From positions 372,001 to 436,000 of the forward strand of contig NC_012029.1 in assembly GCF_000022205.1 (NCBI RefSeq): a stretch of 64,000 nt of DNA, given 5' to 3'. Source of the stretch: Halorubrum lacusprofundi ATCC 49239. Lineage in GTDB: Archaea; Halobacteriota; Halobacteria; Halobacteriales; Haloferacaceae. Each line of letters starts with the position of its first letter. Positions within the stretch are counted from its first letter, which is position 1. The position numbers and the translations under genes are program-made. Below are positions 2,269 to 63,905 of this stretch, one piece after another. Under the pieces are notes generated by a model. It searched no databases, was not told the DNA's origin, and worked only from the letters and a program-made list of their open reading frames with translations.

Positions 2269-2371
2269 CGTTTCTACCTCGGTGTTACCAACGCGGTGAC
2301 TGTTTCCGAAGCCCCAGTTGTCGGCGGCAGAGCCACCGACGACGCCGACAACACCGCGGTTGATTATTTAA
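2269..2371 (+). repeat. Dispersed SKAPA-type structured element, degenerate copy
   Basis: The ilvE-ribB intergenic region holds a diverged copy of the element seen better at 28125, 53287 and 61741. The core starts with GTG at 2296 and contains TTTCCGAAGCCCCAGTT. Immediately afterwards GTTGTCGGCG (2317-2326) and CGCCGACAAC (2343-2352) form a perfect 10-bp inverted repeat around a 16-nt loop. The closing box is TTATTTAAA (2364-2372), which overlaps the stop codon of ribB on the other strand. The upstream TATA is degraded (TTTCTA near 2271). Confidence 0.5.
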
Positions 2372-4154: not shown

Positions 4155-4226
4155 GGGCTCGTAGATCAGCGGCAGATCGCTTCCTTCGCAAGGAAGAGGC
4201 CCGGGGTTCAAATCCCCGCGAGTCCA
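4155..4226 (+). tRNA. tRNA-Ala (anticodon CGC)
   Basis: A complete cloverleaf can be folded by eye. The acceptor stem GGGCTCG/CGAGTCC includes the G3:U70 wobble pair that is the alanine identity element. The anticodon stem CTTCC/GGAAG encloses the loop TTCGCAA (anticodon CGC). The T stem CGGGG/CCCCG encloses TTCAAAT. The discriminator is A and CCA is not encoded. No intron. The 3' end (CCCCGCGAGTCCA) is repeated in tandem just downstream. Confidence 0.97.
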
Positions 4227-4518
4227 CTCCTCTCACTTCGTTCGAGTTGTTTCCTCGCTTGCCCCCGCTCGCTTCGCTCGCGGGGACCCCGCGAGTCCAC
4301 TCCTCTCACTTCGTTCGAGTTGTTTCCTCGCTTGCCCCCGCTCGCTTCGCTCGCGGGGACCCCGCGAGTCCACTCCTCTCACTTCGTTCGAGTTGTTTCC
4401 TCGCTTGCCCCCGCTCGCTTCGCTCGCGGGGACCCCGCGAGTCCACTCCTCTCACTTCGTTCGAGTTGTTTCCTCGCTTGCCCCCGCTCGCTTCGCTCGC
4501 GGGGACCCCGCGAGTCCA
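4218..4518 (+). repeat. Four 73-bp tandem repeats beginning with the tRNA-Ala 3' end
   Basis: Units start at 4218, 4291, 4364 and 4437, each exactly 73 bp and apparently identical, with a fifth partial start at 4510. Each junction reads CCCCGCGAGTCCA, identical to the last 13 nt of the tRNA including the discriminator. Inside each unit CCCCGC and GCGGGG flank a short hairpin. Because 73 is not a multiple of 3, the open frames crossing the array are artefacts. The array ends before a T-rich stretch at 4525. Confidence 0.95.
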
Positions 4519-4520
4519 TC

Positions 4521-11534: not shown

Positions 11535-11641
11535 ACCGCCCGTGTCTCGGTGATCGACCACACATCGGTCGCGACCGGTTTCAACGAGCTCCTCGATCGC
11601 TTATAAACCGTTGCCGGCGCGGTACTCCCTTATAAACAGTC

Positions 11642-28124: not shown

Positions 28125-28289
28125 TTATAAGAGGTTGCTAGTAGATCGACGGTGAACACTTCCAAAGCCCCAGCCGGGAGACGCTTCGCGCCTCTGGCAG
28201 CCGGCGCGTAGCGCCGGCGACCTCGCACGCGCACTTCGTGGCCGCCGATGGCGGCCACTCAGAGGCGCGCCACTGCAGTTTCTTTATAA
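28125..28289 (+). repeat. Dispersed SKAPA-type structured element, best-folded copy
   Basis: TTATAA at 28125 is followed exactly 27 nt later by GTG (28152) and the core TCCAAAGCCCCAGCCG. Then CGCGCCTCTG (28187-28196) pairs perfectly with CAGAGGCGCG (28260-28269), enclosing two perfect 8-bp hairpins: GCCGGCGC/GCGCCGGC (28200-28218) and TGGCCGCC/GGCGGCCA (28239-28257). The closing TTATAA (28284-28289) overlaps the stop codon of the glycerate kinase gene. The GTG frame would encode only 19 residues. A weaker copy of the core may precede the first TATA (28094-28124). Confidence 0.75.
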
Positions 28290-53286: not shown

Positions 53287-53470
53287 TTATAAACGGCTGA
53301 CGGTGACTCCGCAGTGAAGGTATCGAGAGCCCCAGTCGATCGCCGATACGTTGTTGTCAGCGGACCGACCATGAACATCTCCAAAGCCCCAGCCGCGACG
53401 ACCTCGCGTGTGCTCTTCGCGCCCGATGGGCGCTCACAGGCGCGCGCGCCGACCGCATTTCGATTTATAA
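53287..53470 (+). repeat. Dispersed SKAPA-type structured element, tandem pair
   Basis: TTATAA at 53287 is followed exactly 27 nt later by GTG (53314) and a core copy with TCGAGAGCCCCAGTCG. A second core starts with ATG at 53371, exactly 57 bp on (TCCAAAGCCCCAGCCG); its TATA position reads CGATAC. Then GCGCCC-GAT-GGGCGC (53419-53433) forms a perfect hairpin inside a partial outer stem (53405-53412 with 53435-53444). A final TTATAA is at 53465-53470. This fills most of the 315-bp gap between the CNNM and DUF5781 genes. Confidence 0.75.
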
Positions 53471-57357: not shown

Positions 57358-60300
57358 CAAACGACAATAATACACGTAAGAAGGCCAGTGCGGTCTTCTT
57401 CGCGGCGATCATGGTCGTCTCCATGGTCGCAATTGGTTTCGCTGCTGCTCCGGCAGCAGCCGACCTTGATGGTACAAACAGTACCATCGACTCTGCGGCC
57501 GCCGAACCCGTGACGGCTGGGTTCGACTCGTCAGAGCAGGACGTACAGGTAAAGGTTACAATTAGCGACAATGCCAGCGACAACGTGACTGTCGACCTCT
57601 CTGAGGCGGCAGACGTGGAAGCTGTTCCGTCGCTACAGGACGTAACCATCTCCCCCAGTACGACTGGTAATGTTAACCTCCTCGGCTCGGAGTTTGACGA
57701 GAGCACGAACGTTCTCGAGTTCCAAGTCAAAGGTACCACCGCAGGAGACGACGTCGCAACAGTCACTGCCTCCTTCGAGCACGACCTCAGCAATGTTGAA
57801 GGTCCCGCCGGTACTACAAACCGGCTGAGCTACAGCGTTGGTGCAGGCACTGAAACGGATTCCACGATTGCTAACTTCGAGGTTTACTCCGCTGAGGATG
57901 TCAGCCTTGACGCACCGCTCACCGAAGACAATGTGAACTCCGCGGATTTCACAGTCTCGCACCCGGCTAACACTCCGGTCGCCGGTGATGAAGTTTCACT
58001 CTTCATCACTGGAAACGATAATTCGACTGTTGTCGATCCCACTTCGGCTACCACAGACGCAGACCCCACAACCTTCACGGGTGTCAATCTGGACAGTCAG
58101 GGAATCGCTTCCGGTGCTGGCGACGAGATCCAGTTCCATGCTGTGTTGGCGGCTGACGCCGACAACGGTACGAGCGGATTCGAGGCCAGCTTAAATAACG
58201 TTCAGGCTGATGGTACCGCCACTGTCGATGATTCTGATGCGGATATCATCACCGATAGTGATTGGGACGGTTCGCAGCTCTGGGAAGGTCAGACAGTTAC
58301 TGTTGACCTTAGTGGCAGCAATGTTGCTCCCGGTGACGAGGTCACCGTGCGAGAGGTCACTAACCGCAATGGTAACGGGTACGCGACCAACACGCGACTA
58401 GCCCGCTCCCTCACCGTTAGCGGTGATCGGACGATCTCCATCGAAACGGATCGTCTCCGTGGTGAAGCCGAATACGTCCTTCGGACGTCTAACGGGCTCC
58501 TAGCAGCCGGAACGGCCGGCGCTGGTACTGACGGAGAGTTCAGGATGGTTCTTGGTGTATCCGACATCGCTGAGGCGCAAGTTCTCACGCAGGACCTCTC
58601 GGCAGAGTTTGCTGAGGATGAAGCGAACAACGACGAGAAGATCGACGTCGACGTTGCATCGCTGCGTAGCGAATTCGACGTTGAAGTGAGCGGCGACCTT
58701 GACGACAGCGAGCTCTCCGAAGAAGAACTCGAGAACATCTTCGACGACGAGAGCGCAACCGGCCTCGACGACGGCGACGATGACACGGTGCTCATCGAGG
58801 ACGTCCAGGACGGCGAAGCCTTCGTTGCGAACTTCACTGATGTTGACGGCGGCAACTACTCCTTCGACTTCGACGTCGAGGACACTACGGCCTCCGACAC
58901 CGACTCGATCGAAGTGACCGAGCTCGGCGAGGGTGAACTCACCCTTGGTGGCGAGAGCATCGTCACCGAACAGCAGGGTGACGTCGCGAACATCACCGTC
59001 ACCTTTGACGGTACCGCTGAAACTGGTACGCTCCTCGTCGGCGACGAAGACGATGTTGGCTACCAGGGTAACATCACGATTGACTCGAACGGCGAAGACG
59101 AAGTGAACGTCCTGTTCAACAGCTACGCCGCGGGTAGCTCCGGTAACGGGACGGTCTTTGAGCTCGCGAACCCGGACGACACGGACGCTGAGCTCGACAA
59201 CTTCCAGCAGAACCAGATTTCCGACGTCCTCTCCGATGGCGACTACACGCTCTCGGTGAGTACGTCGAGCGACTACGACGATACGCTGGACGATCCCGAC
59301 ACGATCGGGACGCTCGTGCTCGAACAGCGCGCGACGACGAACCAGCAGATCTGGACGACCTCTGAAGGCACCGTCACTGACATCGTCGACGCAGCAGATG
59401 CCGACGATGAGGACGGGCTCGAAGAGCTGAACTCCCAGATTGAGGGTGACAACGTGACCCAGGCGAGCACGATCGCCGAGGGCGACTACGTCATCCACCA
59501 GATCGAGGCGTCCGGCCTGTCCGGCCTCCTCGCGCAGTACGACGACGACCCGACCACCGCGCTTAACGATGCAGTGACCGACACCGGCGCGGGTATCGGC
59601 ACTGCAGTGACCGACACCGGCGCGGGTATCGGCACCAACGACGGTGCGCTCAGCCTGCGTGTCCGTCAGACTCAGGCCTCGACGACCGCCAACCAGGATC
59701 CCGCTGAACTGCAGAGCAACATCCTGGGTAACATGACGGTCTTCGCAGACGAGGAGACGAACAACTACTACGTCGTCTACGACCTCGACGACACGTCGGC
59801 TGAGGATGGCGAAGCGTTCGACGCACGCTTCCGCGTGCAGGACGATCGCCTCCTCAACCCGTCTGACTCGGACCGTGACGCTCTCTCGACGAACGAGCTC
59901 ACCAACGAGTACTACCAGAGCGTGACCGCTTCCTTCGACGTGGCAGAGCGTGAATTCGAGTTCGACCAGGACCCTTACAACGTGACGAACGCTGAGGGTC
60001 AGGCCGTCTCGGGCACCTCGAACGTTGCGCCCGGTACTGAAGTGAACGTCCGCCTCCGCTCGGCGTCTGGTACGAGTCCCTCGTTCATCGAGACGAGCGA
60101 GGGCGTGCGTGTCAACGCTGACGGCACGTGGATGACTGAATTCGACTTCAGTGACACCTCGGTCGGTGACGAGTACACGTTCACGGTCCGGCAGACGGGC
60201 CTTGACGAGAACCCGTCCGTCGACGGTACGGTCATCGAAGCAGTCGATGACGGTACCGACGATGGTGACGACGGCAACGTGACCGACGGTGACGACGGTG

Positions 60301-60545
60301 ACGACGGTAACGTTACCGACGGTGACGATGGTGACGACGGCAACGTCACTGACGGTGACGACGGCACCGACGATGGTGACGACGGAACCGACGACGGTGA
60401 CGACGGCTCCGACGATGGATCCGACGGCTCCGACGGCGGTGACGACGGCGGCGACTCCGAAGACGGCACGCCCGGCTTCGGTGCGCTCGTCGCTCTCGTC
60501 GCCCTCATCGCGGCTGCGCTCCTCGCGACGCGGCGTAACGAGTAA
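57354..60545 (+). CDS. csg: S-layer glycoprotein
   Basis: A 1063-residue cell-surface glycoprotein forming the S-layer. The signal is KKASAVFFAAIMVVSMVAIG...APAAADL. The mature part is very acidic and beta-rich with many NxS/T glycosylation sites (NSTIDS, NVTVDLS, NGTSG, NITVTF). Near the C-terminus is a long Asp/Gly/Thr-rich spacer made of DDGDDGNVTDG repeats, a likely O-glycosylated stalk, then GTPGFGALVALVALIAAALL and an RRNE end: the PGF-CTERM signal for archaeosortase and lipid attachment. Base composition is less GC-rich than its neighbours, fitting a highly expressed gene. Confidence 0.95.
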   Translation: MTNDNNTRKKASAVFFAAIMVVSMVAIGFAAAPAAADLDGTNSTIDSAAAEPVTAGFDSSEQDVQVKVTISDNASDNVTVDLSEAADVEAVPSLQDVTISPSTTGNVNLLGSEFDESTNVLEFQVKGTTAGDDVATVTASFEHDLSNVEGPAGTTNRLSYSVGAGTETDSTIANFEVYSAEDVSLDAPLTEDNVNSADFTVSHPANTPVAGDEVSLFITGNDNSTVVDPTSATTDADPTTFTGVNLDSQGIASGAGDEIQFHAVLAADADNGTSGFEASLNNVQADGTATVDDSDADIITDSDWDGSQLWEGQTVTVDLSGSNVAPGDEVTVREVTNRNGNGYATNTRLARSLTVSGDRTISIETDRLRGEAEYVLRTSNGLLAAGTAGAGTDGEFRMVLGVSDIAEAQVLTQDLSAEFAEDEANNDEKIDVDVASLRSEFDVEVSGDLDDSELSEEELENIFDDESATGLDDGDDDTVLIEDVQDGEAFVANFTDVDGGNYSFDFDVEDTTASDTDSIEVTELGEGELTLGGESIVTEQQGDVANITVTFDGTAETGTLLVGDEDDVGYQGNITIDSNGEDEVNVLFNSYAAGSSGNGTVFELANPDDTDAELDNFQQNQISDVLSDGDYTLSVSTSSDYDDTLDDPDTIGTLVLEQRATTNQQIWTTSEGTVTDIVDAADADDEDGLEELNSQIEGDNVTQASTIAEGDYVIHQIEASGLSGLLAQYDDDPTTALNDAVTDTGAGIGTAVTDTGAGIGTNDGALSLRVRQTQASTTANQDPAELQSNILGNMTVFADEETNNYYVVYDLDDTSAEDGEAFDARFRVQDDRLLNPSDSDRDALSTNELTNEYYQSVTASFDVAEREFEFDQDPYNVTNAEGQAVSGTSNVAPGTEVNVRLRSASGTSPSFIETSEGVRVNADGTWMTEFDFSDTSVGDEYTFTVRQTGLDENPSVDGTVIEAVDDGTDDGDDGNVTDGDDGDDGNVTDGDDGDDGNVTDGDDGTDDGDDGTDDGDDGSDDGSDGSDGGDDGGDSEDGTPGFGALVALVALIAAALLATRRNE
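59571..59636. repeat. 33-bp tandem duplication in the S-layer gene
   Basis: Two 33-bp units starting at 59571 and 59604, identical except for the last base, encode AVTDTGAGIGT twice in frame. A recent duplication in a surface-exposed protein. Confidence 0.9.
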
Positions 60546-60613: not shown

Positions 60614-61017
60614 ATGACGCTCCGCCTCGACCGGTGAGCGACGGCGCCGCGCAGCGCCGCCCGCACGACGCGGTGTCGGGCTCGGGATCGAGACCCGACT
60701 CGCGACGCTCGCCGCGATCACGGACTCGACGACGACGACGACACGATCGAGTCGATCTCGCGAGCACTTCGGCGTCGACGACGTCGCCGACACCCGACCC
60801 TGACCGATCGCCGAGTGCCACCATTCCCCACGCGACCGCCGTTGCGAAGCGGTTAAGGGCGAACCGCGGGAAATACGGGTAACTCGCTGGTGCGGACACA
60901 GCGGGCACTCGCCGCCGGAGCCGGCTTCGACGCCGCGATGGCCGTCGACGCCGCGCCCCGGGACGAGACGACATGTGGCCGCTTCGCGGCTGAATCGCAA
61001 CCGTCCGCGGACAACAT

Positions 61018-61608
61018 ATGGCACGAAGTTTCTACTCGCACATCAAGGAGGCGTGGCGGTCCCCCAAGGAGGGGAAACTCGCAGAGCTACAGTGGCAGCG
61101 CAAACAGGAGTGGCGCGACGAGGGCGCCATCGAGCGCATCGAGCGCCCCACCCGCCTGGACAAGGCCCGCGAGCTGGGCTACAAGGCGAAGCAGGGCGTC
61201 GTCGTCGCCCGCGTGAGCGTCCGCAAGGGCGGCTCGCGCAAGCAGCGACACAAGGCCGGCCGCCGCTCGAAGCGGCAGGGTGTCAACCGGCTCTCGCGCC
61301 GCAAGTCGATCCAGCGCATCTCGGAGGAGCGCGCCTCGCGCAAGTACCGGAACCTCCGCGTGCTCAACTCCTACTGGGTCGGTGAGGACGGCTCCCAGAA
61401 GTGGCACGAAGTGATCCTGGTGGACCCGAACCACCCCGCGATCGAGAACGACGGCGATCTCGGCTGGATCGCCTCGGACGACCACAAGGGGCGCGCGTTC
61501 CGCGGGCTCACCTCCGCCGGCACCAAGGGTCGCGGCCAGCGCACGCGCGGCACGGGTACGGAGAAGACCCGCCCGAGCGTCACCGGCAACGACCGGCAGG
61601 GCAAGTAA
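61018..61608 (+). CDS. rpl15e: 50S ribosomal protein L15e
   Basis: A 196-residue ribosomal protein, MARSFYSHIKEAWRSPKEGK, with GVVVARVSVRKGGSRKQRHKAGRRSKRQGVNRL-type basic core and a C-terminus rich in Gly, Thr and Lys (GTKGRGQRTRGTGTEKTRPS). Length and motifs match archaeal L15e. The start ATG follows ACAACAT. Monocistronic here. Confidence 0.96.
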   Translation: MARSFYSHIKEAWRSPKEGKLAELQWQRKQEWRDEGAIERIERPTRLDKARELGYKAKQGVVVARVSVRKGGSRKQRHKAGRRSKRQGVNRLSRRKSIQRISEERASRKYRNLRVLNSYWVGEDGSQKWHEVILVDPNHPAIENDGDLGWIASDDHKGRAFRGLTSAGTKGRGQRTRGTGTEKTRPSVTGNDRQGK

Positions 61609-61740: not shown

Positions 61741-62050
61741 GTGGACTTCTCCAAAGTCCCAGTCGCTCGCTTATAAGTGGCTTCCAGCGGATCGACGGTG
61801 AAGGTCTCCAAAGCCCCAGCCGGCGAGGACGGCGCACGCTCGCTGCGGTCCTCAGTCACTCGCTCTGCTCGTTCCCTGCGGTCCTTACGTCGCCTGCGCC
61901 GTCCTCGCCGGCTGCCCCTTTGAGTCCCACCCCACCCCGCACAGCACCGCTCCGCACCTCACACCTCCCCAGCCTCGTCGGCCACCCTCCGCGTTGCTCC
62001 GGGTGGCCGACTCCCTCGCACCGGCGACGCCACCGCCTCGTTCTTTATAA
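61741..62050 (+). repeat. Dispersed SKAPA-type structured element, longest copy
   Basis: A first core starts with GTG at 61741 (TCCAAAGTCCCAGTCG). TTATAA at 61771 is followed exactly 27 nt later by the second GTG (61798), 57 bp after the first, and the core TCCAAAGCCCCAGCCG. Then CAGCCGGCGAGGACGGCGCA (61817-61836) and its perfect 20-bp complement (61895-61914) form a long stem with a 58-nt loop. A final TTATAA is at 62045-62050. The GTG frame encodes 41 residues, Arg/Ser-rich and unlike haloarchaeal proteins. Confidence 0.78.

Positions 62051-62244: not shown

Positions 62245-63905
<1,661 letters not shown>

Follow-up and report, generated by a model that had tools for sequence, protein, structure and literature searches.

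At the centre of this analysis are 165 nt, positions 28125 to 28289 of the window (the whole 64,000-nt stretch of the Halorubrum lacusprofundi genome that was analysed), at the end of a gene on the minus strand that encodes a glycerate kinase with the domains DUF4147 and MOFRL. They carry one unit of a repeated element, followed by two small hairpin modules and then by its hairpin III; hairpin I has lost its right half, and the linker of hairpin II is gone (Table 1). The copy thus departs from the element's standard form: it is an internally deleted, shortened derivative and probably a remnant. Its closing TTATAA holds the stop codon of the glycerate kinase gene (TAA, minus strand, 28286-28284), as the earlier note had seen. 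The exact abutment of element and gene end, which that note also proposed, is not general, since the stop lies inside TTATAA in only two of seven orthologues and is 15-23 nt off in the remaining five.

Table 1. Copies of the element, their parts, and remnants in the window
Feature	Position	Strand	Basis or remark
Left unit, from TTATAA to CCAAAGCCCCAGCCG	28125..28176	+	Exact motif at 28162-28176; consensus of 234 first units
Small hairpin module GAGACGCTTCGCGCCTC, imperfect; GAGGCGCTTCGCGCCTC in other copies	28177..28194	+	
Small hairpin module, 8-bp arms, 3-nt loop	28200..28218	+	
Hairpin III, conserved right end GCGCGCCACTGC; inner hairpin 28238-28258	28223..28276	+	Family covariation
Closing TTATAA overlapping glycerate kinase stop	28284..28289	+	
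Second copy, at site S2, with two units and no hairpin but III; closing TTATAA 53465-53470	53287..53470	+	
Third copy, full form	61751..62050	+	Parts in the next two lines
Third copy: degenerate unit motif, upstream; unit; hairpin I	61751-61765; 61771-61822; 61809-61922	+	
Third copy: linker II; then hairpin II, right end; TTATAA	61965-61977; 62045-62050	+	
Remnant unit motif CCGAAGCCCCAGTTG	2306..2320	+	Relative G012 has an element at the same site
Probable remnant: two TTATAA 29 nt apart	11601..11635	-	G012 has an element there

The copy folds better than expected by chance. The minimum free energy of the 165 nt is -75.8 kcal/mol, compared with -61.5 +/- 4.2 kcal/mol for dinucleotide-shuffled sequences (z = -3.4), and that of an 83-nt core is -57.4 compared with -40.8 +/- 3.4 kcal/mol (z = -5.0); the natural sequence was beaten by none of 200 shuffles in the first case and by none of 1000 in the second. 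The fold had originally been described as a perfect 10-bp outer stem enclosing two perfect 8-bp hairpins with 3-nt loops. The outer stem is indeed perfect, CGCGCCTCTG at 28187-28196 being the reverse complement of CAGAGGCGCG at 28260-28269, and the first inner hairpin is as described, while the second has 9 bp rather than 8. As the fold of the element, the outer stem had to be abandoned: its two strands come from the right arm of a small module and from the right side of hairpin III, and it is not a pairing of the family. In the 165-nt context other pairings compete with it, its pair probability is about 0.42, and it is absent from the minimum free energy structure (-72.9 kcal/mol when enforced versus -75.8 kcal/mol). 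The pairing of this region that is conserved in the family is hairpin III itself, with GCGC..GCGC around GTGGCCGCC/GGCGGCCAC.

That the stretch is a member of a repeated element is supported by the copies of the family. The motif CCAAAGCCCCAGYCG, with at most one mismatch, occurs 99 times in the H. lacusprofundi genome, compared with 4 times for the reversed pattern. The exact motif is found in 34 of 35 Halorubrum genomes (H. lacusprofundi included), with 2-205 copies per genome having any, and the same search gave it in none of 24 genomes from other genera of the order. The named contigs that bear the element are mostly from Halorubrum; a comparison of the 15-base motif with viral contigs gave 120 matches, a raw match count that is not taken as presence in viruses. 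A full copy opens with a tandem array of one to five units, continues with the three hairpins I, II and III, and closes with a second TTATAA. Each unit is 51, 54 or 57 nt long and runs from TTATAA, which may be degenerate, to CCAAAGCCCCAGCCG. Hairpin I is laid out as CAAAGCCCCAGCCGCGAGG...CCTCGCGGCTGCCCCTTTG, then AGTCCCACCC, and it is followed in order by the linker CTCCCCAGCCTCG, hairpin II, CTCCCTCG, hairpin III, CGCCACCGC, a short tail and TTATAA. TTATAA is present at 119 of 176 right ends, compared with 38 of 3000 background windows. When the two ends of the element were compared for a terminal inverted repeat, only a short resemblance was found, as judged by eye. The distance from TTATAA to CCAAAG is 31, 34, 37, 40 or 43 in 141 of 150 distinct Halorubrum units, and these 3-nt steps, like those of the tandem spacing (51/54/57), come without codon-like substitution or a long open reading frame, as in 28125-28176.

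The expectation that pairing would be conserved at homologous copies was borne out, with many compensatory changes. In an alignment of 30 distinct copies, made up of six Halorubrum rows chosen for the diversity of their arms, a choice that may have biased them towards good pairing, and all 24 distinct copies collected from other genera, unselected, foot and stem of hairpin I are 96.2% paired, compared with 67.5% after shuffling. The covariation score of hairpin I is 0.668 compared with 0.142 for shuffled copies (reached in 0 of 500 shuffles) and at most 0.126 when the arms are slid. Nearly all pairs are Watson-Crick, G-U pairs occupying 2 of the 450 cells of this alignment. In a wider count over all collected copies, in which arms took whichever of nine offsets was best, a procedure that lifts observed and shuffled values slightly but unequally, hairpin I is 82% paired versus 58% shuffled in Halorubrum, and 93% versus 46% in other genera. 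Hairpin III has two-sided changes in 12 of 14 pairs and a covariation score of 0.421, compared with 0.129 when shuffled (0 of 500) and at most 0.082 when slid. Hairpin II was missed by RNAalifold on the right half, because its arms are too variable to align, and it was therefore tested by anchored arms: 47 distinct arm pairs are 83% paired, compared with 57%, and 64% at the maximum, when arms are shuffled among copies. What appears to be maintained is the fold rather than the sequence, with arms that run free and are yet complementary and with feet that are conserved.

Hairpin I extends far beyond Halorubrum. A search of plasmids gave two weak matches, of which one, in Halorussus, led to a signature for the whole class, AAAGCCCC-N75..105-CCCCTTTNAGTCC. 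This signature was matched in no fewer than 143 of 242 Halobacteria genomes, which represent 44 of 74 genera, with no match for the reversed-pattern controls; a longer signature likewise gave no control matches. The general form of the hairpin is AAAGCCC-C(variable stem)G-CCCCTTTNAGTCCCNCCC. A G before CCCC, which is absent from the search pattern, is invariant in the 30 aligned copies, and from this follows a foot AAAG, a symmetric CCC/CCC internal loop, a C-G pair and then the variable stem. In 51 of 60 Halorubrum copies and in 19 of 31 others, AGT is followed by CCC.CCC. Copies in other genera occur in inverted pairs, which are not typical of Halorubrum, and no TTATAA was seen beside hairpin I in those flanks of other-genus copies that were examined. 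Tandem left units are also found in other genera (L503, L512, L525), where a unit can repeat the variable arm of the adjoining hairpin, pointing to local duplication.

Within Halorubrum the sites are old and have been kept in one orientation, while their interiors are lost, swapped and sometimes inverted. Over a 400-kb stretch, those elements of the relative G012 that have both flanks mapped to H. lacusprofundi loci meet, with few exceptions, an element or a remnant there. Of 30 genomes with data for site S2, at least 18 have the element there; they fall on both main branches of the gene tree, and the orientation is the same in all of them. Sites S3 (11 genomes) and S4 (8 genomes) have one main orientation each. 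Since presence at S2 is unclustered on the gene tree, losses (or gains) must have been many. Between H. lacusprofundi and G012, bodies from one site resemble each other no better than bodies from different sites do (0.31 versus 0.31), and H. lacusprofundi has no near-identical copies at separate sites. The earlier note had raised the question of whether related strains carry the glycerate kinase gene without the element. Six genomes have an element at the site, no two with the same interior, and G024 has a single TTATAA there. What lies past the 3' TTATAA often looks like the beginning of a unit, so the G024 site may be a remnant and not a virgin target. L003, L342 and L429 have hairpin I interiors that are turned round relative to the usual orientation, as though by recombination between the arms of the hairpin.

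The reading that we prefer, with a probability of about one half, is that the element is a dispersed fold-back DNA repeat found throughout the haloarchaea, an archaeal analogue of the bacterial REP/BIME sequences, of which the copy at the glycerate kinase gene would be a degenerate example. The likeness lies in its being a high-copy, dispersed, extragenic palindrome, in the inverted pairs seen in other genera, in the position of Halorubrum copies mostly between unidirectional or convergent genes, for which bacterial REPs have a similar preference (PMC3733652), and in a tag beside a hairpin that has a mismatch within it, close to the foot. The differences are that hairpin I alone spans about 100-125 nt whereas a REP has 20-40 (PMC3733652), that the tag is GGGNGGGACTN and not GTAG or CGTC (PMC3733652), that the arms are almost fully variable, that the host is an archaeon, and that no link to a RAYT (Y1 transposase) is seen, as judged from G002, G004 and G005. 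For reasons of size, tag and RAYT, we do not file the element as a REP in spite of its REP/BIME-like anatomy.

According to this proposal the element would act as single-stranded or extruded DNA, its hairpins being handled by replication, by recombination, or by a structure-recognising nuclease or transposase. Such handling may first have spread the element into AT-rich intergenic TTATAA sites, and copies would now persist mainly by descent and by exchange from copy to copy. The fold could be kept up by selection for recognition or by hairpin-templated repair, and the preference for convergent sites in Halorubrum may mean that the element is tolerated there, or that it has a mild REP-like role at the 3' ends of genes. 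No mobilising enzyme for the element was found. The Y1 transposase was considered and set aside, its presence not being tied to copy number: Y1_Tnp is absent from G002, G004 and G005, some of the genomes being drafts, despite 54-115 exact motif copies. The window itself has a Y1_Tnp (IS200/IS605-type) transposase at 63543-63881 on the minus strand, and two further matches of equal score lie about 10 and 19 kb beyond it in the genome.

The main rival is that the element is a structured RNA or a 3'-end element, serving in termination or in 3'-end protection or processing, or a non-coding RNA transcribed from the TTATAA box of the unit, and this we regard as possible, if rather unlikely. It would account for the strong conservation of pairing in hairpins I and III, it gives a meaning to the TATA-box-like TTATAA, and perfect pairing could also stem from selection on a very stable RNA. 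The gene context agrees with it as well: with a simple codon-usage gene caller and intergenic gaps longer than 60 nt as the comparison set, 33 of 75 copies in H. lacusprofundi lie between convergent genes, compared with 35 of 226 gaps in G012 (Fisher p ~1e-6), and the gene on the 5' side points at the copy in 52 of 75 cases. This preference, however, is not seen in a small sample from other genera (6 of 27). Hairpins downstream of genes do function in some Haloferax terminators (PMC7237163), but the element is a long multi-hairpin repeat with strong family conservation, and its copies have no 3' T stretch. Nor does any Rfam family match it above the gathering score. A DNA-level fold fits better than an RNA gene because G-U pairs are so rare in hairpin I, because G-T and A-C mismatches show no consistent strand bias (46:29, 27:39, 12:34), and because interiors are inverted, swapped or deleted with the site retained. 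In the same way, inheritance of sites in one orientation, with interiors that turn over and sometimes invert, favours fold-back DNA over a classical RNA.

A transposon of the MITE or PATE type that is mobile today, inserting into TTATAA and duplicating it, appears doubtful. It is suggested by the TTATAA at both ends of most full copies, by the single TTATAA in G024 and by the 2-205 exact motif copies in each Halorubrum genome that has any, but it is hard to reconcile with sites of constant orientation common to several species, with the lack of a clear terminal inverted repeat, of near-identical copies and of TTATAA by hairpin I in the other-genus flanks examined, and the G024 site can be a remnant. 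The PATEs, MITEs and SMRs of Haloquadratum (PMC3119063) resemble the element as haloarchaeal repeats without a transposase in which core deletions occur, and PATEs carry near-terminal palindromes (PMC3119063). The element differs from them in its tandem units, its three-hairpin chain and its shared sites, and in having no established terminal inverted repeat and no recognised IS605-type ends. That the tandem units code for a repeat peptide on the minus strand (AGALEVFTVDPPATTY) is barely credible: unit lengths do go in 3-nt steps and one reverse frame is free of stops in 135 of 141 units, but substitutions show no codon-phase pattern, there is no long conserved open reading frame, and hairpin lengths do not follow the steps, so that coding was rejected on the codon-phase and open reading frame tests. 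A further reading, which we consider improbable, concerns the conserved tracts of hairpin I. The minus strand of hairpin I reads GGG-N-GGG-ACTNAAA-GGGG-C(variable perfect stem)G-GGG-CTTT, and its four G-tracts around a hairpin of free sequence could assemble into a G-quadruplex whose loop is that hairpin. The element would in that case be a quadruplex-duplex DNA structure, recombinogenic and found across the class, that promotes exchange of its own interior.

A structured repeat with very clean covariation in over half of the sampled haloarchaeal genomes seems to be nameless in Rfam and in the literature searched, where conserved strings and words led to no relevant description; subscription literature lay outside this search, so an earlier description is possible. 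With its feet fixed and its arms variable, the element supplies hundreds of natural hairpins in which to test whether folded DNA or folded RNA is kept, and it is a likely source of spurious open reading frames and misjudged RNA signals in haloarchaeal annotations.

Three other features of the window may be mentioned. At about 60945-61001, just upstream of a gene predicted at about 61018-61608, the Rfam eL15-Euryarchaeota leader is matched below its threshold (28.6 bits versus a cut-off of 33.7). A run of DG/DD-rich coding repeats occupies 60249-60460, inside the gene at about 58545-60545. At 4155-4519, a tRNA gene (4155-4226) is immediately followed by a 73-nt unit that includes the 3' end of the tRNA (CCCCGCGAGTCCA), holds a CTCGCTTCGCTCG palindrome and is repeated about four times in tandem.
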